Position numbers and translations under genes: made by a program
DNA from: Nocardioides caldifontis
Lineage (GTDB): Bacteria; Actinomycetota; Actinomycetes; Propionibacteriales; Nocardioidaceae
Direction: 5' to 3'
NCBI RefSeq assembly: GCF_008087345.1
Contig: NZ_ML701736.1
Coordinates: forward strand, 313,187-377,186
DNA length: 64,000 nt
Notes under the pieces: model-generated
What the model saw: the letters and a program-made list of their open reading frames with translations, nothing else
Told to the model about the DNA's origin: nothing
The model's database searches: none
Shown here: positions 25,451 through 60,976 of the stretch, in pieces
Numbering within the stretch: position 1 is the first letter of the stretch
Layout of the letters: every line of letters begins with the position of its first letter

Positions 25451-26956
25451 ATGACCTCCCTCTGGCTCGACCGGCCCCTGGAGCAGCACGACGACGCGTT
25501 CCCCGACGACACCTTCGACGACGTCGTGGTCGGCGCCGGGCTCACCGGGCTCACCACCGCGGTGCTCCTGGCCCGCGCCGGACGGCGGGTCGGCGTTCTC
25601 GAGGCGCGCCACGTCGGTGCCGTCACCACCGGCCGCACGACCGCCAAGGTCAGCCTGCTGCAGGGCACGAAGCTGTCCGGCATCCTCCAGTCGCACCCCG
25701 AGAGCAAGGCTCGCGCCTACCTCGACGCCAACACCGAGGGGCTGGCTTGGCTGCGCCGGTTCTGCGCCGACCACGGCGTCGACGTCCAGCACCGCGACGC
25801 CGTGGTGTTCGCCCACGACACGAGCGAGATCAGGGCGGTGCGGTCCGAGCACGACGCCGCGAGGTCCGTCGGGCTCGACGTCCGGTGGGAGGACGACCTC
25901 GGGGTGCCGTTCCCGCACCACGGCGCCGTCGTCCTCGCCGACCAGCTCCAGCTCGACCCGGTGGAGCTCCTGCTCGCGCTCGTCGCCGAGCTCCGGGCGC
26001 ACGGCGGGACGGTCCACGAGGGGCAGCGCGTCGTCACCGTCTCCCGGGCCGGCAAGCCCTGCCTGGTGCTGGAGACCGGCCGCCAGGTCTCGGCCGACAA
26101 CGTGGTCCTGGCCACCGGCATCCCGGTGCTGGACCGGGCGATGACGTTCGCGAAGGTCGAGCCCAAGCGGTCGTACCTTCTCGCGTTCCGCGGGGTGCCG
26201 GCGCCCGAGGGGATGTACCTCTCCGCGGGCTCCTCGGCCCGCTCGGTCCGCGACGTCCCGACCCAGGACGGCACGCCGGCGTTCCTGGTCGGCGGCAGCG
26301 GCCACACGGTCGGCCGCACGCGCTCGGAGCGGCGCCACCTCGACGAGCTCCGGGAGTGGACCGCCGAGCACTTACCGGGGGCGGTGGAGACGCACGCCTG
26401 GTCGGCGCAGGACTACTCGCCGTACGACGGGCTGCCGCTGCTCGGAAAGCTGCCGCTCGGGCTCGGCCGCATCCACTACGCGACCGGCTACGACAAGTGG
26501 GGGATGACGAACGGGGTCGCGGCGTCGCTCGCGATCGCCGCCGAGCTGCTGGGCGGCGAGGCGCCCGGGTGGGCCCGCGCGTTGGACCGGCGCGTGCCGA
26601 CCCCGCGCGCGGCGCTGCACGTCGGGATGCTCAACGCGGGGGTGGGGCTCGCCGAGACGACGTCCACGCTCGAGGCGATTACGTCCTCGCTGCCCGACGA
26701 CGTCGAGGAGGGCACCGGCGTGGTCGGACGCGAGGGCGTCGTGCCGACCGGGGTGGCGAAGGTCGACGGCCGCACGTGCAAGGTGGCCGCGATCTGCACC
26801 CACGTCGGCGGCACGCTGCGGTGGAACGACGCCGAGCGGTCGTGGGACTGCCCGCTGCACGGCTCGCCGTTCGCCCCCGACGGCTCGGTGCTCGAGGGGC
26901 CGGCGACGCGACCGCTGCAGCGGCGCGACTCGGGCGAGGCGTCCGGCTCGGCCTAG
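25451..26956 (+). CDS. FAD-dependent oxidoreductase with C-terminal Rieske domain
   Basis: 501-aa two-domain protein. Residues about 22-390 form a DAO-type flavoprotein (DDVVVGAGLTGLTTAVLLA near the N terminus, an RTTAKV substrate region, and ATGYDKWGMTNG near the end of the FAD domain). Residues about 440-490 form a Rieske [2Fe-2S] domain with CTHVGG and CPLHGSPF ligands. This combination is widespread in actinobacteria and firmicutes and is thought to be an electron-transfer oxidoreductase of unknown substrate. Its stop codon overlaps the selB stop by four bases on the opposite strand. Confidence 0.9.
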   Translation: MTSLWLDRPLEQHDDAFPDDTFDDVVVGAGLTGLTTAVLLARAGRRVGVLEARHVGAVTTGRTTAKVSLLQGTKLSGILQSHPESKARAYLDANTEGLAWLRRFCADHGVDVQHRDAVVFAHDTSEIRAVRSEHDAARSVGLDVRWEDDLGVPFPHHGAVVLADQLQLDPVELLLALVAELRAHGGTVHEGQRVVTVSRAGKPCLVLETGRQVSADNVVLATGIPVLDRAMTFAKVEPKRSYLLAFRGVPAPEGMYLSAGSSARSVRDVPTQDGTPAFLVGGSGHTVGRTRSERRHLDELREWTAEHLPGAVETHAWSAQDYSPYDGLPLLGKLPLGLGRIHYATGYDKWGMTNGVAASLAIAAELLGGEAPGWARALDRRVPTPRAALHVGMLNAGVGLAETTSTLEAITSSLPDDVEEGTGVVGREGVVPTGVAKVDGRTCKVAAICTHVGGTLRWNDAERSWDCPLHGSPFAPDGSVLEGPATRPLQRRDSGEASGSA

Positions 26957-28743
26957 GAGCCGCCCTTCCCGGTGACCGAGCGGCGGTCGTCGGGGTGGCG
27001 GTGGGTGTACCCGAGCCGGTCGAGGTGCTGCAGCAGCGGGAGCACCACCCGGCGGGTCGTGTCGAGCCGGCTCCGCGCCTCGCTGGTCGTGAACGGCTGG
27101 GGGAGCGCCCTGAGCTCCTCGACCGCCCGCCGGTCGGCCCCGGGGGCGAGCACGATGCCGTCGCCGAGGTGCAGCAGCCGCCCCGCCTTGGCGGCGGCGA
27201 CGACGCCCCGGGGCTGGAGCCCGACCTCGCGGAGCCGGTCGGCGGTGGGCGCGAGGAACGGCCGCGCCTCCAGCTCCTCCAGGAGCCGGCCGACCGCTTC
27301 GCGCAGCGGCGCGGGGAGCGTGTCGGCCGGCGCCGTGCTCCGCGACGTCACCCGGCCGTCGACCACCCGCAGGGGCGGCGTCACGAGGGAGGCGACGAGC
27401 TGGGGCGACGGCAGCCCGAGCCGTTCGGCGAGCGAGACGAGGGTCAGGCCGGGACCGTCGTCGCCGTTGGAGGCCTCGTGCTCGGCGACGACCTCGCCGA
27501 GCCGCGCGCGCAGCCCGGCAGCCCGCCGGTCGCCGAGGAGCCAGCCGTCGGTGGGCCGGAGGTCGTGGGTGGGCACGCCGAGCGCCCGCAGGAGGTCGAC
27601 GTGGACCAGCCCCCGTCGGGCGACCTCCGCAGCCGCGTCGGGCACGCCGGTGGCCGCACCCAGGTCGTCGGCCCGTGCCCGGGCGGCGCCGCGGCGCTCC
27701 AGCTTCGGGGGCGCGGGGTCGAGGACCGTCACGCCCCAGAGCAGCCGGCTCCCGGGATCGCGCAGCAGGGCCCGGTCACCGATCCGCAGCGGGAGCGCAC
27801 GCTCCAGCGTCAGGCGGGCGAGCCCGTCGGTGGCACCACCCAGCGGCCGGAGGTACGCCGGGACCGCGACGCTGCCGACGTGGAGCAGCGGCCGGCGGGG
27901 TGGACCGGGGGACTCCTCGGACGTGGCGGCGGGGGTGAGCCGGACGTCGACCGCACCGGTGAAGTGCCACGCGTCGGGGGTGACCAGCACGTCGTGGCGC
28001 GCGAGACGGCCGCGCACGTCACCGCCGAGGTTGAGCGCCACCCGTGCCACGCCGGACACCTCCGGGGCGTCGCGGCCGAGGGACTGGACACCCCGCACAC
28101 GGACGACCTCGCGGCCGTTGGTCAACCGGTCTCCGGTCGCGACGGTGCCGGCGGGCAGCGTGCCGGTCACCACGGTCCCGGCGCCGCGGACCGTGAACGC
28201 CCGGTCGACCCACAGCCGCACGTCGGCGTCGGGCTCCGGCTCCGGGAGCGCCCGGACCATCGCGACGAGCTCGGCGCGGAGCTCGTCGAGCCCGTCGCCG
28301 GTCCGGGCGCTCACCGCGACGACGGGGGAGCCGGCCAGGCCGGTGCGCGCGATCTCGGCGGCGGCGCGCGCGGCCATCGGCGCGGGGTCGGCGAGGTCGG
28401 ACCGGGTGACGGCGACGACACCGTGGCGCACCCCGAGCGCGTCGAGCGCGGCCAGGTGCTCCGCGGCCTGCGGCATCCACGGGTCGTCGGCAGCGACCAC
28501 CAGCAGCGCAGCGGGGACGGGACCGACGCCGGAGAGCATCGTGGCCACGAACCGCTCGTGGCCGGGCACGTCGACGAACGCGAGGACACCCGCACCGGGC
28601 AGCGTCGTCCAGGCGTAGCCGAGCTCGATCGACAGCCCGCGCGCGTGCTCCTCGGCGAGCCGGTCGGGGTCGGTGCCGGTCAGGGCCCGCACCAGCGTGC
28701 TCTTGCCGTGGTCGACGTGACCGGCGGTGGCGACGACGTGCAC
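26953..28743 (-). CDS. selB: Selenocysteine-specific elongation factor SelB
   Basis: 596-aa GTPase that brings Sec-tRNA to UGA codons marked by a SECIS hairpin. G1 is ATAGHVDHGKST at the very N terminus, G3 is FVDVPGHERF, and the G4-like motif is VTRSDL. Three EF-Tu-like domains are followed by a C-terminal region of about 250 residues with winged-helix repeats that bind mRNA (visible as helix-rich segments such as LPQPFTTSEARSRLD). GTG at 28743 starts 11 bases after the selA stop, so selA and selB form an operon. It is the only UGA-specific factor here and matches the formate dehydrogenase at 54 kb. Confidence 0.95.
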   Translation of the reverse strand: MHVVATAGHVDHGKSTLVRALTGTDPDRLAEEHARGLSIELGYAWTTLPGAGVLAFVDVPGHERFVATMLSGVGPVPAALLVVAADDPWMPQAAEHLAALDALGVRHGVVAVTRSDLADPAPMAARAAAEIARTGLAGSPVVAVSARTGDGLDELRAELVAMVRALPEPEPDADVRLWVDRAFTVRGAGTVVTGTLPAGTVATGDRLTNGREVVRVRGVQSLGRDAPEVSGVARVALNLGGDVRGRLARHDVLVTPDAWHFTGAVDVRLTPAATSEESPGPPRRPLLHVGSVAVPAYLRPLGGATDGLARLTLERALPLRIGDRALLRDPGSRLLWGVTVLDPAPPKLERRGAARARADDLGAATGVPDAAAEVARRGLVHVDLLRALGVPTHDLRPTDGWLLGDRRAAGLRARLGEVVAEHEASNGDDGPGLTLVSLAERLGLPSPQLVASLVTPPLRVVDGRVTSRSTAPADTLPAPLREAVGRLLEELEARPFLAPTADRLREVGLQPRGVVAAAKAGRLLHLGDGIVLAPGADRRAVEELRALPQPFTTSEARSRLDTTRRVVLPLLQHLDRLGYTHRHPDDRRSVTGKGGS

Positions 28744-28754
28744 CTGCTCCGCCC

Positions 28755-30089
28755 TCAGCCCTCTCCGACGGCCTGGGACGCGACGGCCGCGGCCCGGCGT
28801 ACCGCCTCGACGAGGGCGTCGTCGGCCTCCTCCGGGAGCGCCAGCAGGTCGAGCAGGAGCCGGCCTCGCTCGACGTGGCCGACGACCGGCAGCGTCCCGG
28901 TGCGCAGCGGCGCTGCCAGTGCTTCGGGCAGCACCACGGCGGCGCTCGGCAGCTCGACCTCGGGGGCACCGCCACCGCCGACCGCACCGGTGGACCGCTC
29001 CGCGGAGGCCGCCACGACCGGGGCCAGCCGGCCGGCGATCCCCTCCGCGCGGCGCAGCAGGACCGCGGCGTCGGTGTCGAGGGCCTCGAGGACCGGCGGC
29101 GTCGGCCCGGTCAGGGTCGCCTCGAGCGCGGCGAGGGTGAGCTTGTCGACCCGGAGGGCGCGGGCCAGCGGGTGGCGCCGCACCTGGTGGACGAGGTCGG
29201 CGCGGCCGAGCAGCAGGCCTGCCTGCGGTCCGCCGAGCAGCTTGTCGCCGGAGGCGGTCACGAGCGCCGCCCCGGCGCGGAGCGTGCGCGCCGCGTCGGG
29301 CTCGTCGGGGAGCCGCGGGTGCGGCGCCAGGAGCCCCGAGCCGATGTCGGCGACGACCGGGGCCGGGAGGGTCGCGAGCTCTTGCACCGGCACCGACGAG
29401 GTGAACCCGCGGACGACGAAGTTCGACGGGTGCACCTTGAGGACGAAGGCGGTCTCGTCGGTGATCGCAGCCTCGTAGTCGGACCGCCGCACCCGGTTGG
29501 TGGTGCCGACCTCGCGGAGGCGGGCGCCGACGGACTCCACGAGCTCCGGGATCCGGAACCCGTCGCCGATCTCCACCATCTCGCCGCGCGCGACGACCAC
29601 CTCGCGCCCCTGCCCGAGCGCGCAGGCGACCAGCGCGAGGGCGGCGGCGCCGTTGTTGACCACGTGCACCGCGCCGGCGTCCGGCACCGCGGCGGCCAGC
29701 GCGTCGAGTGCCGACCTGCCCCGCCGGCCGCGTGCGCCGGTCTCCAGGTCGAGCTCGACGTCGGTGGCGCCGGCGGCGACCTCCATCGCGGCGACCGCGG
29801 CGGAGGACAGGGGCGCGCGGCCGAGGTTGGTGTGCACGACGACGCCGGTCGCGTTGAGCACCGGCCGCATGGCGGTCGCGGTGGCCGGCAGGGAGTCGAG
29901 CACGTCGTCGACCGCCGCGGTCGGCGGCACCTCGCCCGCGCGGCACCGGGCCAGGGAGGTCGTGACGGCGCGCTTCACGATGCGGTGGCCGAGCCTCCCG
30001 ATCGCGTCCTGGAGCCGGGGGTCGGCGAGGACCGTGTCGGTCCGCGGCGTCGCGCGACGCGGGTCGGTCGTCGTCGGTCTGCCGTCCAC
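28755..30089 (-). CDS. selA: L-seryl-tRNA(Sec) selenium transferase SelA
   Basis: 444-aa PLP enzyme converting Ser-tRNA(Sec) to Sec-tRNA(Sec) with selenophosphate. The family block NATGVVVHTNLGRAPLS is present, and the PLP lysine lies in TASGDKLLGGPQAGLLLG. The N-terminal tRNA-binding region (about residues 1-75) is present and the length is normal. GTG at 30089 is leaderless after TAGACT. That promoter lies inside the 3' end of copA, so selA-selB can be transcribed independently of the copper genes. Confidence 0.95.
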   Translation of the reverse strand: MDGRPTTTDPRRATPRTDTVLADPRLQDAIGRLGHRIVKRAVTTSLARCRAGEVPPTAAVDDVLDSLPATATAMRPVLNATGVVVHTNLGRAPLSSAAVAAMEVAAGATDVELDLETGARGRRGRSALDALAAAVPDAGAVHVVNNGAAALALVACALGQGREVVVARGEMVEIGDGFRIPELVESVGARLREVGTTNRVRRSDYEAAITDETAFVLKVHPSNFVVRGFTSSVPVQELATLPAPVVADIGSGLLAPHPRLPDEPDAARTLRAGAALVTASGDKLLGGPQAGLLLGRADLVHQVRRHPLARALRVDKLTLAALEATLTGPTPPVLEALDTDAAVLLRRAEGIAGRLAPVVAASAERSTGAVGGGGAPEVELPSAAVVLPEALAAPLRTGTLPVVGHVERGRLLLDLLALPEEADDALVEAVRRAAAVASQAVGEG

Positions 30090-51006: not shown

Positions 51007-52860
51007 TCAGCTGCGGGGTCGCGTCGCGAACCCCGCGGCGAGCCGGCCGCTGAGCTCGGTCGCCGGTTGCGGGCGGGCCAGGTGGTACCCCTGCCCGTAG
51101 CGGCAGCCGAGCGCCAGCAGCGCCTCCCGGGCGGAGTCGTCCTCGATGCCCTCGATGACGATGTCGCGGCCGATCCGGTCGCCGAGGTGCATCAGCGAGG
51201 AGACGATCGGCCCGATGGTGTCGCTGGTGAAGAGCCGGCTCGTGAAGGTCCGGTCGACCTTGATGATGTCGGCCGGCAGCTGCACCAGCCGCGCCAGCGA
51301 CGAGTGGCCGGTGCCGTAGTCGTCGATCGCGAACCGGCAACCGAAGGTGTCGCGCAGCGCCGTCAGCGTGGCCACCGCGACCTGGGTGTGGGTCAGCGCC
51401 TCGGTCTCGGTGATCTCGAGCACCAGCCGGTCCCCGGCGATCCCGCTGTCCGCCAGCGCGACTCGGATGCGCTCCGCGAGCTCAGGGTGGCCCAGCTCGC
51501 CGGGGGACAGGTTGACGAACACCTGCCCCGGGGCGGCGTCCGGAACCTCGGCGTCCCAGGTGGCCAGCTGCGCGCAGGCGGTTCGGAGCACCCATCCTCC
51601 GACGTCCACGATGAGGTCGGTGCCCTCGAGCGCCTCGATGAACTCGCCCGCGGCGAGCAACCCCCGCTCGGGGTGGCGCCACCGCAGCAGCGCCTCGACG
51701 CCGTGCAGCGTCCCGTCCGCGAGCCCCATGATCGGCTGGTAGTGCAGCTCGAGCTGGTCCCGGCTCAGCGCGGCGCTCAGGTCGGCGCGCAGCTGTTGCC
51801 GCCCGGTGACGGCGGCGTACGTGGTCGGGTCGAAGACCGCGTAGCGCCCACCGCCGGCGCGCTTGGCCTGGTACATCGCGGCGTCCGCGTGGCTGATCAG
51901 CGTGTCCGCCGAGGTGGTCGCGTCCGCGGTGGTCACCACCCCGATGCTCGCCGTGCAGAGCTTCCCGGTGAGCCGGGACGCCCGGGCCGCCTCGGTGATC
52001 GCGGCCAGCGCGCGGTCGGCGACCTGCTCGGCCGCCTGCGGGCGGGACAGCTCGGGGAGCAGGACGACGAACTCGTCGCCCCCGACCCGGGACACCACGT
52101 CGGTGGGGCGCACGGTCCGGCGCAGCGAGTCGGCGCTGGCGCGGATCAGCTCGTCGCCGGCGGGGTGGCCGTGGGTGTCGTTGACGTACTTCAGCCCGTC
52201 GAGGTCGACGAACAGCAGCCCGACGTGGCCGCCGTGCCGCTGCACCCCGGCCAGCGCACGGGTGACGTGGTCCACCAGCACCCACCGGCGGGGTAGGTCG
52301 GTGAGCTGGTCGTACATCGCCCGGTGGGAGAGCTCGAGCTGCGCGACCCGGAGCGCGTCGCGGTCGTCGGCGAGGACCAGGTAGCCGGCCGCGACATGCG
52401 CCAGCGCCTGTCCGGTCGCCATCTCCTCCTCGCCGAGCGCGCCCAGCCCCGCACGGTAGAGCGTGAGCGCGCCCCAGACCCGTCCGCGGGCCCGCAGCGG
52501 GAACGCCGTCACGGCGCGGAGCCCGGCGTGCGCCGCACGCTCGCGGTAGGGGAGGGGCCACCGGTCGACGGCCGTGACGTCCGGGACGTCCACCGGCTCG
52601 CCGTGGCGGCAGGTGTCGATACACGGCCCGGCCTCCTGCAGCTCCTGGAGCCGGTCGAGCTCCTCGACCGACCCGGTCGTGCCCTGGACGAACCGCATCC
52701 GTCCGGAGCCGTCCACCACCGAGATGCCGGCGCCGTCGACGTCGAGGACCCGTGGGACCACCGAGAGGAGGACCTTCGCGGCGTCGACGACCGTGAAGTC
52801 GTCGTTGACGAGCGACGCCAGGTCGTGGAGGACCGTGGTCAGTCGTCGCTGGAGGACCAT
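51007..52860 (-). CDS. GAF-GGDEF-EAL cyclic-di-GMP turnover protein
   Basis: 617-aa signalling protein. Residues about 20-165 are a GAF-like sensor. The diguanylate cyclase domain has the intact RVGGDEFVVLL active site and an I-site RPTD five residues before it, so product inhibition is likely. The phosphodiesterase domain has GVEALLRWRHP, NLSPGEL, LEITETEAL, IDDYGTGHSSL and EGIED, all catalytic groups present. Both activities are probably functional, with the GAF ligand choosing the balance. No membrane segment; cytoplasmic. Confidence 0.93.
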   Translation of the reverse strand: MVLQRRLTTVLHDLASLVNDDFTVVDAAKVLLSVVPRVLDVDGAGISVVDGSGRMRFVQGTTGSVEELDRLQELQEAGPCIDTCRHGEPVDVPDVTAVDRWPLPYRERAAHAGLRAVTAFPLRARGRVWGALTLYRAGLGALGEEEMATGQALAHVAAGYLVLADDRDALRVAQLELSHRAMYDQLTDLPRRWVLVDHVTRALAGVQRHGGHVGLLFVDLDGLKYVNDTHGHPAGDELIRASADSLRRTVRPTDVVSRVGGDEFVVLLPELSRPQAAEQVADRALAAITEAARASRLTGKLCTASIGVVTTADATTSADTLISHADAAMYQAKRAGGGRYAVFDPTTYAAVTGRQQLRADLSAALSRDQLELHYQPIMGLADGTLHGVEALLRWRHPERGLLAAGEFIEALEGTDLIVDVGGWVLRTACAQLATWDAEVPDAAPGQVFVNLSPGELGHPELAERIRVALADSGIAGDRLVLEITETEALTHTQVAVATLTALRDTFGCRFAIDDYGTGHSSLARLVQLPADIIKVDRTFTSRLFTSDTIGPIVSSLMHLGDRIGRDIVIEGIEDDSAREALLALGCRYGQGYHLARPQPATELSGRLAAGFATRPRS

Positions 52861-52961: not shown

Positions 52962-53056
52962 TGGCGGAGGCGGACGGGAATCGAACCCGCCGGACCCGGA
53001 TGCCGGGCCCCTACGGTTTTGAGGACCGCGCCCGTCACCAGACGAGGTACGCCTCC
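52962..53056 (-). tRNA. selC: tRNA-Sec (anticodon UCA)
   Basis: 95-nt gene with encoded CCA (52962-52964). The acceptor stem pairs GGAGGCG (5' end 53056) with CGCCTCC. The D stem has 6 bp (CTCGTC/GACGGG) around a 4-base TGGT loop, and the variable arm is a long 8-bp stem with CAT loop; both are tRNA-Sec hallmarks. The anticodon TCA is at 53020-53022. The base before it (position 33) is C rather than the near-universal T: the loop reads CCTCAAA. It is divergent from selD. Confidence 0.95.
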
Positions 53057-53092: not shown

Positions 53093-54085
53093 GTGACCAC
53101 CACGGAAGAGCTGCGCCTCACCCAGTACGCCGCCGGTGGCGGCTGCGCCTGCAAAGTCCCACCAGGGGAGCTGGAACGGGTGCTCTCCGGACTCGACGCG
53201 GGTCGTGCCGGCGGCGACCTGCTGGTCGGGCTCGACGACGGCGACGACGCGGCCGCGGTCCGGATCGACGGCGAACGCGCGGTGATCGCCACCGCCGACT
53301 TCTTCACGCCGGTCGTCGACGACCCCTACGAGTGGGGGCGGATCGCGGCGGCCAACGCGCTCTCCGACGTCTACGCGATGGGCGGCACGCCACTGGTCGC
53401 CGTGAACCTCCTCGCCTGGCCCCGTGACCTGGTGCCCTTCGACGTCGCCGCCGAGGTCCTGCGCGGAGGGGCCGAGCGGTGCGCGGCGGCGGCGACCCAC
53501 CTCGCCGGCGGTCACAGCATCGACGACCGGGAGCCGAAGTACGGCCTCGCCGTCACGGGGATGGGCCACCCCGACCGGCTGCTCCGCAACGACGCCGGCC
53601 GCCCCGGCGTACCGCTGACGCTGACGAAGCCGCTCGGGCTCGGCATCCTCAACAACCGGCACAAGGCCACCGGAGAGCTCTTCGAGGAGGCCGTCGCCAC
53701 GATGACCGCGCTCAACAAGGAGGCCTCGGAGGCGGCCGTCGCCGCCGGCCACCGGTGCGCCACCGACGTCACCGGCTTCGGGCTCCTCGGTCACCTGCAC
53801 AAGCTCGCTCGCGCCAGCGGCGTGACGGCGGTCGTCGACGCGGCCGCGGTGCCCTACGTCGACGGTGCGCGGCAATCGCTGGCCGACGGGTTCGTCCCGG
53901 GCGGGAGCCGGCGCAACCTCGACTGGGTGCGACCGCACCTCGCCTCCTCGCTCGACGAGGACGAGCTGCTCCTCCTCGCCGACGCCCAGACCTCCGGAGG
54001 ACTGCTCGTGGCCGGGGAGCTTCCCGGTCACCCGGTCGTCGGCGAGCTCGTGCCGGCGGGGGAGACGACACTCGTCGTGCGCTGA
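53093..54085 (+). CDS. selD: Selenide, water dikinase (selenophosphate synthetase) SelD
   Basis: 330-aa enzyme making selenophosphate from selenide and ATP. The N-terminal active loop is GGGCACKVPPG, with Cys-x-Cys-Lys in the position of the essential Cys/Lys of E. coli SelD. LLVGLDDGDDAAAVRI and the DVTGFGLLGHLHK motif identify the AIRS-type fold. The active-site residue here is Cys, so SelD itself is not a selenoprotein. GTG at 53093 is leaderless. It is next to tRNA-Sec and just upstream of the UGA-containing formate dehydrogenase, an obvious functional unit. Confidence 0.95.
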   Translation: MTTTEELRLTQYAAGGGCACKVPPGELERVLSGLDAGRAGGDLLVGLDDGDDAAAVRIDGERAVIATADFFTPVVDDPYEWGRIAAANALSDVYAMGGTPLVAVNLLAWPRDLVPFDVAAEVLRGGAERCAAAATHLAGGHSIDDREPKYGLAVTGMGHPDRLLRNDAGRPGVPLTLTKPLGLGILNNRHKATGELFEEAVATMTALNKEASEAAVAAGHRCATDVTGFGLLGHLHKLARASGVTAVVDAAAVPYVDGARQSLADGFVPGGSRRNLDWVRPHLASSLDEDELLLLADAQTSGGLLVAGELPGHPVVGELVPAGETTLVVR

Positions 54086-54145: not shown

Positions 54146-54164
54146 TTCTCGGGAGGAGGAGTCG

Positions 54165-57100
54165 ATGGGCAGGTCGTTCCTCGGGTGGCCGGTGCTCCGT
54201 CAGCTCAGCGGTCGCGACCCACTGGGGCGTGGCCCCGCCGTCCGCTCCGCGCGCACCGACTCGATATCACCGCGCATCGCCACCGCCGACCGCGTCGCCA
54301 AGAGCGTCTGCCCCTACTGCGCCGTCGGCTGCGGCCAGAAGGTCTTCGTCAAGGACGAGAGGGTCATCCAGATCGAGGGTGACCCGGACAGCCCCGTCTC
54401 GCGCGGGCGGCTCTGCCCGAAGGGCTCGGCCAGCAAGAACCTCGTCACCAGCTCGATGCGGCAGACGAAGGTGCGCTACCGCCGTCCCTACGCCACGGAG
54501 TGGGAGGACCTCGACCTCGACGTCGCGATGAACATGATCGCCGACCGGGTCGTGAAGGCACGCAACGACACCTGGCAGGACATCGACGCCGACGGCCGCA
54601 AGGTCCGTCGCACCCTGGGGATCGCGAGCCTGGGTGGCGCCACGCTGGACAACGAGGAGAACTACCTCATCAAGAAGCTGTTCACCGCGATGGGCGCGAT
54701 CCAGATCGAGAACCAGGCGCGCATTTGACACTCCGCCACCGTCCCCGGTCTGGGGACCAGCTTCGGGCGCGGCGGCGCCACCGGGTTCCAGCAGGACCTC
54801 GCCAACGCTGACTGCATCGTCATCCAGGGCTCGAACATGGCCGAGGCCCACCCCGTCGGGTTCCAGTGGGTGATGGAGGCGAAGAAGCGCGGCGCGAAGA
54901 TCATCCACGTCGACCCGCGGTTCACCCGGACCAGTGCGCACGCCGACAAGTTCGTGCCGATCCGCGTGGGCACCGACATCGCGTTCCTCGGCGGGATCGT
55001 CAACTACGTCCTGCAGAACGGGCTGGAGTTCCGCGACTACGTGGTCGCCTACACCAACGCGGCTTCGATCGTCAGCGACGAGTACGTCGACGCCGAGGAG
55101 CTCGACGGGCTGTTCTCCGGGTTCGACCCGGAGACCCGCACCTACGAGACCGGCAGCTGGCAGTACGAGCGGCAGGAGGCGGAGGGGAGCGCCCGCGAGG
55201 ACCACGACGTCCAGCGCGAGACCGCCAGTGCGATGCAGCACGAGACGCACGGCATCAGCGTGGACGGCGAGGTGCTCCGCGACGAGACCCTCCAGCACCC
55301 GCGCTGCGTCTACCAGATCCTCAAGCGGCACTACGCCCGCTACACCCCGGAGATGGTGGCCGAGACGTGCGGCGTGGACCCCGAGGACTTCCTCGAGGTG
55401 TGCCGCGCCTGGACCGAGAACTCCGGCCGCGAGCGCACCACCGCGCTGGTCTACAGCGTCGGCTGGACCCAGCACAGCGTCGGCGTGCAGTACATCCGCA
55501 CCGGCGCGATCCTCCAGCTCCTGCTCGGCAACATGGGCCGCCCGGGGGGCGGCATCTTGGCGCTCCGCGGCCACGCGAGCATCCAGGGCTCGACCGACAT
55601 CCCGACGCTGTTCAACCTGCTGCCGGGCTACCTGCCGATGCCCAACGCGGAGCAGCACACCTCGCTGCAGGAGTGGGTGGACGCGGTCCGCAAGCCGGGG
55701 TCGAAGGGGTTCTGGTCGAAGGCCGGCGCCTACGGCATCAACCTGCTCAAGGCCTACTGGGGCGACAAGGCGACGCCGGAGAACGACTTCTGCTTCGACT
55801 ACCTGCCGAAGATCACCGGAGACCACGGCACCTACCGCACCGTGCTCGACATGATCGACGGCAAGGTCAAGGGGTACTTCCTGCTCGGCCAGAACCCCGC
55901 CGTCGGTTCCGCGCACGGCCGCGCGCAGCGGCTGGGGATGGCCAACCTCGACTGGCTCGTCGTCCGCGACCTGTTCGAGATCGAGAGCGCCACGTTCTGG
56001 AAGAACGCCCCGGAGATCGAGACCGGCGAGATCGTCCCCGAGGAGTGCCGCACCGAGGTCTTCCTGATGCCGGCCGCCTCCCACGTGGAGAAGGAAGGGA
56101 CCTTCACGCAGACCCAGCGGATGCTGCAGTGGCGCGAGAAGGCCGTCGAGGCACCGGGCGACTGCCGTTCGGAGCTCTGGTTCTTCTACCACCTCGGCCG
56201 GATGGTCCGGGACCGGCTGAAGGACTCCACGCTGGAGCGCGACCGCCCGATCCTCGACCTCAACTGGGACTACCCGACGCACGGCGAGCACGCCGAGCCG
56301 TCCGCCGAGGACGTCCTCAAGGAGATCAACGGCTACGAGGTGGCGACCGGCCGGCCGCTGTCGACCTTCATGGAGATGAAGGACGACGGCTCGACGCTGG
56401 GCGGCTGCTGGATCTACACCGGTGTCTTCAAGGACGGCGTCAACCAGGCCGCCCGCCGCAAGCCCGGCAGCGAGCAGGACTGGGTCGCCGGCGAATGGGG
56501 CTGGGCCTGGCCCGCCAACCGGCGGATCCTCTACAACCGCGCGTCGGCAGACCCGTCGGGCAAGCCGTGGAGCGACCGGAAGGCCTACGTCTGGTGGGAC
56601 CCGGACAAGGGCGAGAACGGCGAGTGGACCGGCTACGACGTGCCGGACTTCGAGAAGACCAAGCCGCCGACGTACCGGCCCCCGCACGGCGCCGATGGCG
56701 TCGCCGGGCTGGCCGGTGACGACCCTTTCATCATGCAGGGCGACGGAAAGGGCGCGCTGTACGTCCCGCAGGGGCTGATCGACGGGCCGCTGCCGACCCA
56801 CTACGAGCCGGTGGAGTCGCCGTTCCGCAACCCGGTGTACGGGCAGCAGGGCAACCCCACCCGCAAGGAGTACCAGCGCGAGGACAACCGGCTGAACCCG
56901 AGCCCGCGCGAGGGGCACAGCGACGTGTTCCCGTTCGTGTTCACCACCAGCCGGCTGACCGAGCACCACACGGCCGGCGGGATGAGCCGCTACCTCGAGT
57001 ACCTCTCCGAGCTCCAGCCCGAGATGTTCGTCGAGGTCTCGCCGGCGCTCGCCGCGGAGCGCGGCCTCGAGCACTCCGGCTGGGCGACGATCGTCACCGC

Positions 57101-57554
57101 ACGGTCGGCGATCGAGGCGCGCGTCCTCGTCACCGACCGGCTCCGCCCGCTGCGCGTCGAGGGGCGCACGGTCCACCAGGTCTGGATGCCATACCACTGG
57201 GGCCCCGGCGGCCTGGTGTCCGGCGACTCGACCAACGACCTGTTCGGCATCTCGCTGGACCCCAACGTGCTCATCCAGGAGAGCAAGGTCGGCACCTGCG
57301 ACGTGCGCCCCGGGCGCCGCCCGACGGGCAAGGCGCTGCTCGAGCTGGTGCAGGGGTACCGCGACCGGTCCGGCGTCGTCGAGGGGCAGTACGCCGGTGT
57401 CGTCACCACCGGCCCCGGGGCGGACGGCATCCACGAGGGTGACCCGACCGGCGAGGGACCGAGCGGCATGAGCCGGCGCAACGGCCACTCGGGCGACCGC
57501 GCCGAGGGCCAGGACGAGCCCGGCAGCGACGACGCAGCACCGGAGGGAAGCTGA
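54165..57554 (+). CDS. Formate dehydrogenase alpha subunit, selenocysteine-containing (UGA read-through at codon 188)
   Basis: 1129-aa molybdopterin oxidoreductase. An N-terminal [4Fe-4S] motif VCPYCAVGCG lies at about residues 48-57, and the family segment LCPKGSA follows. The frame reads IENQARI, then TGA (54726-54728), then HSATVPGLGTSFGRGGAT, exactly where formate dehydrogenases have Sec or Cys before the conserved His; this is residue 188. The second half continues to the molybdopterin-dinucleotide domain (RLTEHHTAGGMSRYL, VHQVWMPYHWGP). No twin-arginine signal is present. The ATG overlaps nothing; the beta subunit follows with a one-base overlap. It would oxidise formate to CO2 or run in reverse. 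Confidence 0.93.
54726..54728 (+). other. Recoded UGA = selenocysteine codon
   Basis: In-frame TGA inside conserved catalytic sequence, with homology continuing without change of frame for more than 900 codons. A SECIS-like hairpin follows and selA, selB, selD and tRNA-Sec are all in the window. Confidence 0.93.
54729..54760 (+). promoter_or_regulatory. Bacterial SECIS-like element
   Basis: Hairpin GTCCCC (54741-54746), loop GGTCT (54747-54751), GGGGAC (54752-54757), with the loop about 20 nt after the UGA. The GGUCU loop matches the SelB-contacting loop of the E. coli fdhF SECIS. The lower stem below the six perfect pairs is irregular. Confidence 0.8.
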
Positions 57555-58519
57555 TGGTGTTTCGCAAGAACAGCCTCTACGGGCCGGTGGACCCGGCGGC
57601 GGAGACCGGCTACGACCCGCACCCGCCGCGCAAGGGGTTCTTCACCGACACCAGCGTCTGCATCGGGTGCAAGGCGTGCGAGGTCGCCTGCAAGGAGTGG
57701 AACGAGGTCCCCGACGACGGGTTCGGGATGCTCGGGATGTCCTACGACAACACCGGCAACCTCAACGCGAACACCTGGCGCCACGTGGCGTTCATCGAGC
57801 AGCCGCGACGCAGTGGCAGCCCGGAGGCGGCCGACGGCGGCATGGCACGGGCGAAGGCACCACCGGTCGAGCTCGGGATGCCGGCGATGGGGCCCGACTC
57901 CGACGGCGCCACCGACACCGGCCACGACAAGCCCGACTTCCGCTGGCTGATGTCCTCCGACGTATGCAAGCACTGCACCCACGCGGCCTGCCTCGACGTC
58001 TGCCCGACCGGCTCCCTGTTCCGCACCGAGTTCGGCACGGTCGTCGTCCAGGACGACATCTGCAACGGTTGCGGCTACTGCGTCGCGGCCTGCCCCTACG
58101 GCGTGATCGAGCGGCGGCGCGGGCCGGAGGGCGCCAAGAACGTCGGCATCGCGCAGAAGTGCACGCTCTGCTACGACCGGCTGACGGTGGGGGAGAAGCC
58201 CGCCTGCGCCAAGGCGTGCCCCACCGAGTCGATCCAGTTCGGCGACGTCGAGGAGCTGCGCGAGCGCGCGAACGAGCGGGTCGCGCAGCTGCACGAGCGC
58301 GGAGTCATGGACGCGCGGCTCTACGGCAACGACCCCGAGGACGGGGTCGGGGGCACCGGCGCCTTCTTCCTGCTCCTCGACGAACCGGAGGTCTACGGGC
58401 TGCCGCCCGACCCGGTCGTCACGACCCGCGACCTTCCGCAGATGTTCAACCGAGCGACGGCCGCGGGGCTGGCGCTGCTCGCCGGCGCGGTCGTCTCCTT
58501 CCTGGGGAGACGTTCGTGA
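57554..58519 (+). CDS. Formate dehydrogenase iron-sulfur (beta) subunit
   Basis: 321-aa ferredoxin-type subunit with four clusters: CIGCKACEVACKEWN (residues about 36-50), CKHCTHAACLDVCP, CNGCGYCVAACPYG and CTLCYDR followed by CAKACP. A 40-residue Gly/Asp/Ala-rich insertion lies between the first and second groups. The C terminus has a short hydrophobic segment (AAGLALLAGAVVSFLG), probably a membrane anchor as in FdnH. It overlaps the alpha subunit by one base and the NrfD subunit by four bases (GTGA). Electrons pass from formate through it to the membrane subunit. Confidence 0.94.
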   Translation: MVFRKNSLYGPVDPAAETGYDPHPPRKGFFTDTSVCIGCKACEVACKEWNEVPDDGFGMLGMSYDNTGNLNANTWRHVAFIEQPRRSGSPEAADGGMARAKAPPVELGMPAMGPDSDGATDTGHDKPDFRWLMSSDVCKHCTHAACLDVCPTGSLFRTEFGTVVVQDDICNGCGYCVAACPYGVIERRRGPEGAKNVGIAQKCTLCYDRLTVGEKPACAKACPTESIQFGDVEELRERANERVAQLHERGVMDARLYGNDPEDGVGGTGAFFLLLDEPEVYGLPPDPVVTTRDLPQMFNRATAAGLALLAGAVVSFLGRRS

Positions 58520-59577
58520 AGAGCTCCGAGCGCGACCAGCGGCTGCCGGGCTCCGAGGCCACCGCACCGGGCGGTGGCGAGCCGATGCGCCGCCGTGGGG
58601 CCTCCGACTTCTCGATGGTCGAGCCGGCGGAGTTCACCTCCTACTACGGCCGCAACATCGTCAAGCCCGCGCCGTGGGAGGCAGACATCCCGGCGTACCT
58701 CTTCTCGGGCGGGGTGGCCGCCGGCTCGTCGCTCCTGGCGGCCGGCGCCAGCATCACCGGCCGCGACGGGCTACGACGGACCGGCCGGCTCGGCGCGATC
58801 GTCGCGCTGGGGTTCAGCATGGCTGCGCTGGTGCACGACCTCGGACGTCCGTCACGGTTCCTCAACATGCTGCGCACGGTGAAGCTGACGTCGCCGATGT
58901 CGGTGGGCACGTGGATCCTCTCGACGTACGGCCCCTTCGCGGCGATCGCCGCGGCGGCGGAGCTCGCCGGGCTGCTGCCCGAGGGGGCGACGCCCTCGCG
59001 GCTCCGAGGCCCCTTGAAGCTGCTGAGGTGGGTTGGCCGTCCGGCGGGGCTGGTGGCGGGGGTCACCGCCCCGCCGGTGGCGGCCTACACCGCGGTGCTG
59101 CTCTCCGACACCGCGACGCCGTCGTGGCACGAGGCCTACCGCGAGCTGCCCTTCGTCTTCTGCGGCTCCGCAGCCGCCGCGTCCGGCGGGCTCGGGATGA
59201 TCGGCGCTCCGGTCGCCGAGGCCGGCCCGGCACGGACGTTCGCGCTCGGTGGCGCGCTCGTCGAGCTCGCGATGGAGCACCGCATGGAGCAGTCGATGGG
59301 GCTGACCGCCGAGCCGCTCCACCACGGCAAGGCCGGGCGGCTCATGAAGGCCGCCAAGGCGCTCACCGTCGTCGGCGCCGTCGGCACCCTGCTCGCCGGC
59401 CGCAGCCGCGCCGCGGCCGTGGCCTCCGGCGCCGCCCTGCTCGCCGGCTCGGCCTGCACCCGCTTCGGGGTCTTCGAGGCGGGTATGGAATCCGCACGCG
59501 ACCCGAAGTACGTCGTCGTCCCGCAGCGCGAACGCATCGCGCGGGAAGGGCCCACCAGGTACGTCGAGAAACAGTAG
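58516..59577 (+). CDS. NrfD/PsrC-family membrane subunit of formate dehydrogenase
   Basis: 353-aa integral membrane protein of about nine helices (VAAGSSLLAAGASIT, GRLGAIVALGFSMAALVHDLGR, MSVGTWILSTYG and others). NrfD-type subunits carry no heme and reduce quinones directly from the FeS subunit. The LVHDLGRPSRFLNMLR segment is typical. GTG at 58516 overlaps the beta subunit stop (GTGA). It gives the complex a quinone-linked membrane anchor in place of the cytochrome b subunit of E. coli FdnI. Confidence 0.9.
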   Translation: MKSSERDQRLPGSEATAPGGGEPMRRRGASDFSMVEPAEFTSYYGRNIVKPAPWEADIPAYLFSGGVAAGSSLLAAGASITGRDGLRRTGRLGAIVALGFSMAALVHDLGRPSRFLNMLRTVKLTSPMSVGTWILSTYGPFAAIAAAAELAGLLPEGATPSRLRGPLKLLRWVGRPAGLVAGVTAPPVAAYTAVLLSDTATPSWHEAYRELPFVFCGSAAAASGGLGMIGAPVAEAGPARTFALGGALVELAMEHRMEQSMGLTAEPLHHGKAGRLMKAAKALTVVGAVGTLLAGRSRAAAVASGAALLAGSACTRFGVFEAGMESARDPKYVVVPQRERIAREGPTRYVEKQ

Positions 59578-59611: not shown

Positions 59612-60976
59612 ATGTCGTCCAGCTCAGCGTCGTCCAGCTCAGCGTCATCCAGCTCAGCGTCGTCCAGCTCAGCGTCGTCCAGCTCAGCGTTGTCCGGCAC
59701 ATCCTCGTCCGGCACACCCACGTCCGGCTCGACCGGCAACCGCTGGTTGCTCGTCGGCGGGGGGTTGCTGCTCCAGTTCTCCATCGGCGCCGTCTATGCA
59801 TGGAGCGTCTTCTCCAAGGCTTTGCAGGACGAGGAGAAGGCGCCGGACTGGGCGCTGTCGAAGGTCGAGGCGTCGCTGCCGTTCACGATCACGATCGCGA
59901 TGATCTTCGTCGGCACCTACATCGGCGGCCGCATCCAGGACAAGCGCGGTCCGCGGGTCGTCGCGCTGGCCGGCGGCATCATCTACGCCATCGGCATCAT
60001 CCTCGCGTCGTTCTCGCGCGGCGATGACCAGCTCTGGCTCCTCATCGCCGGCTACGGCGTCATCAGCGGCTTCGGGCTCGGCGTCGCCTACATCGTCCCG
60101 ATCGCGATGCTCCAGAAGTGGTTCCCTGACAAGAAAGGGCTGATCACCGGGCTCGCCGTCGGTGGCTTCGGCTTCGGCGCCGTGCTGACCTCGCCGGTCG
60201 CCCAGTGGTTGATCTCCAAGGACCCTGCGCAACCGACGAAGTCGTTCCTGTGGCTGGGCCTCGCCTACCTGGTGATGTCGCTGGCCGGTGCCGCGATCTT
60301 CCGCAACCCGCCGGAGGGGTACACCGTGCCCGGCTACGAGTCGGCCACGGGCGGTGGCGAGGGCGCCAAGGAGTTCTCGCAGGGTGAGGCGCTGCGGACC
60401 CCGCAGTGGTACCTCCTGACGGCCATCCTGACGCTGAACGTCAGCGCAGGCATCGCTCTGATCTCGGTGGCCGCCGGCAGCGCAGAGGGGATCGCCGGCT
60501 ACAGCAGCGCCGCGGCGGCCACCGCGGTCGGTGTCCTCGCGATCTTCAACGGCGGCGGCCGGATCGTGTGGGCCGCGGCCTCCGACTACATCGGCCGGAT
60601 GCCGTCGTTCGCCGCGATGCTGGCGCTGCAGGGCGTGTGCCTGCTGATCCTCCCGCACGCCGGCAACGTCGCGCTCTGGTTCGTCCTCGCGGCTGTCATC
60701 TACCTCTGCTACGGCGGAGGCTTCGGCACCATGCCGGCCACCGCCGGCGACTTCTTCGGTGTCAAGAACGCCGGCGCCATCTACGGGCTGATGCTCATCG
60801 GGTGGAGCCTCGGCGGCGTGATCGGCCCGATCCTGATCTCGTCCCTGCTCGGCGAGGACGACAACTACACGCTCGCCTACACGGTGATGGGGATCATCGC
60901 GCTGGCGTCCGTCGCGCTCACGCTCATCACACGGATCCCGAAGGAGCGCAAGGAGGCCGCCACCGTCAGCTCCTGA
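59612..60976 (+). CDS. OFA-family MFS transporter (oxalate/formate antiporter type) with Ser/Ala repeat N terminus
   Basis: 454-aa MFS protein with twelve helices. The first is RWLLVGGGLLLQFSIGAVYAWSVF, the classic OFA opening; GYGVISGFGLGVAYIVPIAM and YGLMLIGWSLGGVIGP are further family blocks. Downstream of a formate dehydrogenase it plausibly imports formate or exchanges oxalate for formate. Its first 40 residues are a low-complexity cytoplasmic tail with five SSSSA repeats, encoded by a 15-bp tandem repeat. GGAGG lies ten bases before the ATG. Confidence 0.88.
   Translation: MSSSSASSSSASSSSASSSSASSSSALSGTSSSGTPTSGSTGNRWLLVGGGLLLQFSIGAVYAWSVFSKALQDEEKAPDWALSKVEASLPFTITIAMIFVGTYIGGRIQDKRGPRVVALAGGIIYAIGIILASFSRGDDQLWLLIAGYGVISGFGLGVAYIVPIAMLQKWFPDKKGLITGLAVGGFGFGAVLTSPVAQWLISKDPAQPTKSFLWLGLAYLVMSLAGAAIFRNPPEGYTVPGYESATGGGEGAKEFSQGEALRTPQWYLLTAILTLNVSAGIALISVAAGSAEGIAGYSSAAAATAVGVLAIFNGGGRIVWAAASDYIGRMPSFAAMLALQGVCLLILPHAGNVALWFVLAAVIYLCYGGGFGTMPATAGDFFGVKNAGAIYGLMLIGWSLGGVIGPILISSLLGEDDNYTLAYTVMGIIALASVALTLITRIPKERKEAATVSS
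59615..59689 (+). repeat. 15-bp tandem repeat TCGTCCAGCTCAGCG, 5 copies, in coding sequence
   Basis: Five contiguous copies start two codons into the OFA transporter gene; only the third has a change (TCATCC). The length is a multiple of three, so gain or loss of copies keeps the frame and changes only the N-terminal tail length. Confidence 0.9.

Follow-up and report, generated by a model that had tools for sequence, protein, structure and literature searches.

Formate dehydrogenase (FDH) alpha subunits were the most frequent bacterial selenoproteins in a survey of 822 organisms and 1276 proteins, according to the excerpt of PMC5029168 that we used. The excerpt of PMC7176365 describes the membrane-bound FDH1 of Actinomycetospora chiangmaiensis DSM 45062, with a selenocysteine (Sec)-containing FdhA of 1078 residues listed alongside FdhB, FdhC, a permease, SelA and SelB. 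Formate accumulated in that organism without selenium but hardly with selenite, FdhA1 was detected in the proteome, and the selenocysteine insertion sequence (SECIS) was predicted with bSECISearch (same excerpt). A switch of the Sec codon from UGA to UAG in Geodermatophilaceae has already been reported, as cited in the excerpt of PMC5330540 (its reference 56). Here we analyzed a 64,000-nucleotide stretch of DNA from Nocardioides caldifontis (hereafter the window; contig NZ_ML701736.1, positions 313,187 to 377,186 of the forward strand), in which one gene, fdhA, almost certainly encodes a molybdenum/tungsten FDH alpha subunit with Sec at residue 188, the in-frame UGA being decoded via SelB and a downstream hairpin. 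The elements of this gene are as follows:

54165..57554, forward strand: fdhA, predicted FDH alpha subunit of 1129 residues with Sec at residue 188, terminal TGA at 57552-57554 (NF041513, 1kqf_A)
54726..54728, forward strand: in-frame TGA, codon 188, almost certainly read as selenocysteine (1kqf_A alignment; TGA in relatives)
54741..54757, forward strand: SECIS-type hairpin with a 6-bp stem and a GGUCU loop at 54747-54751 (covariation, conservation and in-register SECIS_3 alignment)
54152..54159, forward strand: purine-rich GGAGGAGG, the likely fdhA ribosome binding site, separated from ATG 54165 by 5 nt

The sequence and its translation show fdhA as a single frame from ATG 54165 to TGA 57554, with codon 188 an in-frame TGA. 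When this TGA is read through, 54165-57551 comprises 1129 codons in one frame, and the triplet at 54726-54728 is the sole internal TGA. Translation table 11 splits the gene into two open reading frames (ORFs), 54165-54728 (187 residues plus TGA) and 54837-57554 (905 residues plus TGA), as the first-pass annotation of this stretch had described. That annotation had also seen continuity across the break with the FDH active site, and the residues around codon 188 do read NQARI-U-HSATV, placing U188 at the active-site Cys/Sec position with H189 next to it. The read-through protein matched NF041513 (formate_DH_Act, actinobacterial formate dehydrogenase) at 1962.6 bits (cut-off 1400) over residues 5-1067 of 1129 and model positions 3-1066 of 1067, whereas the separate pieces scored 340.5 and 1513.7 bits, so that about 108 bits were gained over the sum of the pieces. 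FdhA matches this family over nearly its whole length; a C-terminal tail of about 60 residues extends beyond the model, and no other notable difference from the model was seen. The first pass had called the gene hidden, which overstated its novelty, since NCBI already has this curated model.

FdhA was aligned with FDH alpha subunits, a check suggested in the first pass. The best match of FdhA among solved structures was 1kqf_A, the nitrate-inducible formate dehydrogenase major subunit (695.4 bits), which we take to be E. coli FDH-N. Residue 188 was paired with the X in the 1kqf_A stretch NQARVXHGPTV, presumably Sec, a position common to both alpha subunits. In all 89 family loci introduced below, the 20 residues that follow the TGA are HSATVPGLGTSFGRGGATGF or closely similar, and this segment lines up with the region around the active site in 1kqf. 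No twin-arginine signal was seen by eye at the N-terminus of the translation, and the active site is therefore probably cytoplasmic.

Codon 188 was read in two sets of relatives. The family set comprised 341 genomes of the window's own bacterial family (Nocardioidaceae), N. caldifontis included, and the protein was detected in 89 of them with an E-value no higher than 1e-100. The 91 matched places yielded 89 loci in 88 genomes at which codon 188 could be read, the window's own among them; a piece in genome G272 (residues 724-1103) misses the codon and was left out, and two pieces in G264 were merged into one locus. The second set consisted of named loci, the best 80 of at least 589 relatives, and partly repeats the first (L142, L143 and L147 appear to be G201, G102 and G292). 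The results showed TGA at 87 of the 89 family loci, with one TGC and one TAG, and among the best 80 named loci 75 carried TGA and 5 TAG. All six stem pairs of the hairpin were formed in every one of the 87 family TGA loci and in all 80 named loci, and the hairpin is also present in the family TAG locus. The first-pass annotation had looked to real stops in homologues as evidence against read-through; what we found was TGA accompanied by the hairpin (87/89 and 75/80) and five TAG genomes with a CUA tRNA-Sec, the one misfit being the TAG of family genome G085. A second Sec codon, suggested by 14 matches with two TGA triplets, was rejected and is not claimed, because each matched stretch runs beyond the gene's own stop.

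The hairpin, GUCCCC-GGUCU-GGGGAC, has 18 nt between the UGA and the loop, which agrees with the first pass, where a GGUCU-loop hairpin was put about 20 nt beyond the UGA. The window contains 1064 TGA triplets on both strands, and codon 188 alone is followed, at a distance of 18 nt, by an [AG]GTCT loop closed by six pairs; under a looser hairpin definition three of the 1064 fit, codon 188 among them. The same 18 nt separate UGA and GGUCU in E. coli FDH-H (fdhF), as judged from a 45-nt fdhF stretch that matched the three listed fdhF records at 100%. Among the 87 TGA loci the loop was GGTCT in 83 and AGTCT in 4, and the codon inside it was GGT or AGT in 87/87; at the other positions past the Sec codon of the same genes, GGT accounted for 599 of 7384 Gly codons. 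The one freely varying stem pair, formed by two third codon positions, was intact in all 65 distinct sequences, with five pair types. Shuffling, which takes no account of relatedness among the sequences, gave a mean of 40.7 paired, and 0 of 20000 shuffles reached 65. The best paired fraction among the other 77 comparable third-position pairs was 0.72. These comparisons indicate that the hairpin is under selection and that the compensatory changes at its variable pair are synonymous.

Five loci (L062, L081, L092, L093 and L205) carry an AGUCU loop instead of GGUCU, and the protein has Ser instead of Gly there. AGUCU is also the loop of the printed SECIS_3 consensus, which makes this a known variation.

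All four Sec-decoding genes, selA, selB, selC and selD, were found within the window, as the first pass had stated, with the nuance that some 24 kb separates selA and selB from fdhA; the tRNA-Sec gene and selD precede and adjoin it:

52962..53056, reverse strand: selC, tRNA-Sec with anticodon UCA (RF01852, 78.3 bits, gathering score 47; ARAGORN)
53093..54085, forward strand: selD, selenide water dikinase (TIGR00476, 383.5 bits, cut-off 125)
about 28797..30056, reverse strand: selA, selenocysteine synthase, matched stretch (TIGR00474, 412.2 bits, cut-off 267.9; Pfam SelA)
26956..28740, reverse strand, approximate ends: selB, Sec-specific elongation factor (TIGR00475; GTP_EFTU and SelB-wing_3 domains)

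An Rfam scan of the window at the gathering threshold returned the tRNA-Sec as its sole match. ORFs near fdhA were rejected as candidates for selA and selB; they are a GGDEF-EAL protein and others, and family searches put selA and selB elsewhere.

Across the homologues, sequence comparison indicates that the codon at this site changes together with the Sec machinery. The TGC homologue, in G095 (one contig, 100% complete), has GGGTT where the loop should be and has lost the hairpin; selA was not matched in that genome, and the highest tRNA-Sec score there was 42.8 bits. The tRNA-Sec scores of the 341 genomes formed two groups, at least 65.4 bits and at most 49.8 bits, the lower one presumably tRNA-Ser, and by our own threshold of at least 65 bits 94 genomes were counted as having a tRNA-Sec. 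At Rfam's 47 bits the count was 99/341, the five extra genomes (47-50 bits) presumably reflecting tRNA-Ser. Both tRNA-Sec and FDH were present in 86 genomes, FDH only in 3, tRNA-Sec only in 8 and neither in 244. The FDH contig carried 79 of the 94 tRNA-Sec genes, with 77 lying within 10 kb and 60 within 2 kb of the FDH. Besides G095, the FDH-only genomes were G050 and G292, both with TGA. Fragments of an fdhA-type FDH were present in three of the tRNA-only genomes (G059, G063 and G277), four others held only distant FDH relatives (G211, G290, G339 and G340), and the last, G087 (L112), had no relative of FdhA at E 1e-10. The five named TAG loci (L204, L211-L214) belong to Geodermatophilus, three Modestobacter and Goekera, and each of these genomes had a match to the tRNA-Sec model (64.2-67.7 bits) with anticodon CTA, that is, a CUA tRNA-Sec. 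The UAG-decoding Sec FDHs of Geodermatophilaceae share the enzyme, site and hairpin described here, but combine TAG with a CUA tRNA-Sec, whereas N. caldifontis combines TGA with UCA.

Some further observations concern these tRNA genes. ARAGORN calls the CUA tRNA-Sec genes of Geodermatophilaceae (L218-L222) tRNA-Pyl, an annotation trap. Geodermatophilus sp. LHW52908 (G341; L216, L222) has two tRNA-Sec genes, with anticodons TCA (81.8 bits) and CTA (65.3 bits), and its FDH uses TAG. In G290 (L243), which has a tRNA-Sec and only the distant FDH relatives, no selA match was found; its tRNA-Sec and that of G087 may be relics or may serve other selenoproteins. In G339, a genome with tRNA-Sec and without an fdhA-type FDH, one frame (L124, G339:C195:9845-10273) distantly resembles FDH and contains a single internal TGA; it is possibly another Sec enzyme.

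Several observations weigh against Sec decoding at codon 188. Free folding of 56 nt gave a minimum other than the hairpin (z -0.24), 68 of 200 shuffles folded at least as well, and the hairpin pair probabilities came to 0.11-0.12 for the 56 nt and to 0.05-0.06 for 101 nt, those of a minority structure. The Rfam model SECIS_3 (RF01989) scored only 20 bits over 54723-54781 (E 0.022 for 141 bases; gathering score 63). The selB product matched TIGR00475 in two parts of 230 bits (model 2-340) and 23.6 bits (528-578), each below the cut-off of 242.25, and the adjoining beta-subunit gene fdhB scored 176.8 bits with TIGR01582, below the cut-off of 334.7. Among the relatives, the L102 (G333) piece carries, in addition to the TGA, an in-frame TAG that precedes the Sec codon, the L099 (G264) gene was matched in two pieces, no tRNA-Sec above 44.1 bits was found in G050 and G292 despite their TGA, and in G085 (L057/L113, C80), of the window's own family, the Sec site reads TAG, yet the tRNA-Sec found there is UCA.

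Given the different minimum and the z of -0.24, we argue the hairpin from comparison and not from energy. Its pair probabilities were at least 0.97 in 40-nt stretches beginning at or just after the UGA. For the stretch that directly follows the UGA they were at least 0.98, and there the third stem pair from the loop exceeded 0.5 in 87/87 TGA loci, the window's own included. The first pass had proposed running a bacterial SECIS model; in a permissive run the SECIS_3 alignment was in register with both the UGA and the loop, but at 20 bits against a gathering score of 63 we treat it as weak, and the hairpin is not filed as a member of RF01989. The G333 and G264 genomes are 70-77% complete, and their defects, either assembly errors or broken copies, touch single relatives and not the window gene. 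The assemblies of G050 and G292 are broken into 520 and 890 contigs, and selA or part of it is present in both.

The TAG of G085 lies about 35 nt from a contig end and its hairpin is intact. The protein is close to those of Cellulomonas and Nocardioides: the part after the TAG shares 87% identity with Cellulomonas aerilata (L139), 86% with L033 (G142) and 65-67% with the five Geodermatophilaceae loci, and contamination from Geodermatophilaceae is therefore not favored as its source. This TAG may be a contig-end error, a nonsense mutation or a codon switch. It seems unlikely that the Sec codon of fdhA is evolutionarily fluid outside the case already known in Geodermatophilaceae.

The split under table 11 would also be expected if the TGA were a nonsense mutation or a sequencing error and the gene a decaying pseudogene. 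However, the same TGA occurs in 86 of the 88 other family loci, the downstream protein and the hairpin are conserved, tRNA-Sec and selD are adjacent, and the hairpin shows compensatory synonymous changes; this explanation has practically no probability left, and as far as sequence can decide it is already refuted by conservation. The ORF from ATG 54837, which alone scores above the NF041513 cut-off at 1513.7 bits, could instead be the second of two separate proteins, the first ending at the TGA. The conserved 20 residues that follow the TGA in the 89 loci and align with the 1kqf active-site region, together with the bits gained by joining the pieces, make such a restart extremely improbable. 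Near-cognate suppression, in which the UGA would be read as Trp, Cys or another residue with no Sec, hardly deserves credence, since the Sec machinery is present and in relatives is linked to the fdhA-type gene, the hairpin appears to be under selection, and in five genomes the codon and the tRNA-Sec anticodon have switched together.

Another proposal would add to Sec decoding rather than replace it: termination at the UGA would act as a selenium-dependent switch, yielding a 187-residue product with a role of its own. Release factor 2 competes at Sec UGA codons in general, but we saw no sign that the short product has a function, and we consider the switch very improbable. Beyond this possible termination product, nothing novel is left in the window gene itself.

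Downstream of fdhA lie iron-sulphur beta-subunit and membrane genes, and fdhA, fdhB and the NrfD-type gene overlap end to end. These neighbors, followed by a major facilitator superfamily (MFS) transporter, are as follows:

57554..58519, forward strand: fdhB, iron-sulphur beta subunit (TIGR01582, Fer4_11), its ATG overlapping the fdhA stop
58516..59577, forward strand: NrfD-type membrane subunit (Pfam NrfD, 60.9 bits, cut-off 25.8), with a presumed gamma role and a presumed GTG start
59612..60976, forward strand: MFS transporter of the L-lactate / oxalate-formate type (NF049980, 422.4 bits, cut-off 320; TIGR00890, 221.3 bits, below 374.85)

The NrfD-type protein had no NCBIfam match at E 0.001. 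The MFS transporter may be a formate carrier; its frame opens with tandem repeats encoding Ser/Ala runs (59612-59720), and the true start may be further in. An FdhD-like gene elsewhere in the genome scored 138.2 bits against a cut-off of 140.9. On the other side of fdhA, a GAF-GGDEF-EAL protein of the cyclic di-GMP turnover type (51007-52860, reverse strand) adjoins the tRNA-Sec gene.

The first-pass proposal that the UGA is read through as Sec is supported by the homologue codons, the hairpin and the machinery; for N. caldifontis itself, we infer Sec insertion from these sequence features. By analogy with the known families, SelD would make selenophosphate, SelA would convert Ser-tRNA-Sec(UCA) to Sec-tRNA-Sec, and SelB would bring the latter to the ribosome and bind the hairpin whose GGUCU loop stands 18 nt beyond the UGA, so that this UGA would be decoded; the terminal UGA, which has no such hairpin, would still stop translation. 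FdhA would work with the iron-sulphur protein FdhB and the NrfD-type membrane protein, oxidizing formate and passing the electrons towards the quinone pool, with the metal site, catalytic direction and quinone acceptor likewise assigned from known families. The membrane gene is of the NrfD type here, whereas that of FDH-N is presumably of the cytochrome b type. Compared with FDH1 of A. chiangmaiensis as described in the excerpt of PMC7176365, a likeness drawn from the description, selA and selB are about 24 kb off in N. caldifontis, and tRNA-Sec and selD stand beside fdhA.

A literature search combining selenoprotein, formate dehydrogenase and Nocardioides found no paper within one library, and within that library a Sec FDH in the window's family may be unreported. 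The kind of enzyme and of recoding is already known, and no new principle is added. In practice, gene callers without Sec support split fdhA and lose its active site. The homologue set amounts to a clean natural test of tRNA-Sec decoding, with compensatory changes in the hairpin, a Cys homologue without the hairpin or a selA match, and TAG homologues with a CUA tRNA-Sec. If the TAG of G085 is real, Sec would have shifted from UGA to UAG there independently, or would be in transition between the two.

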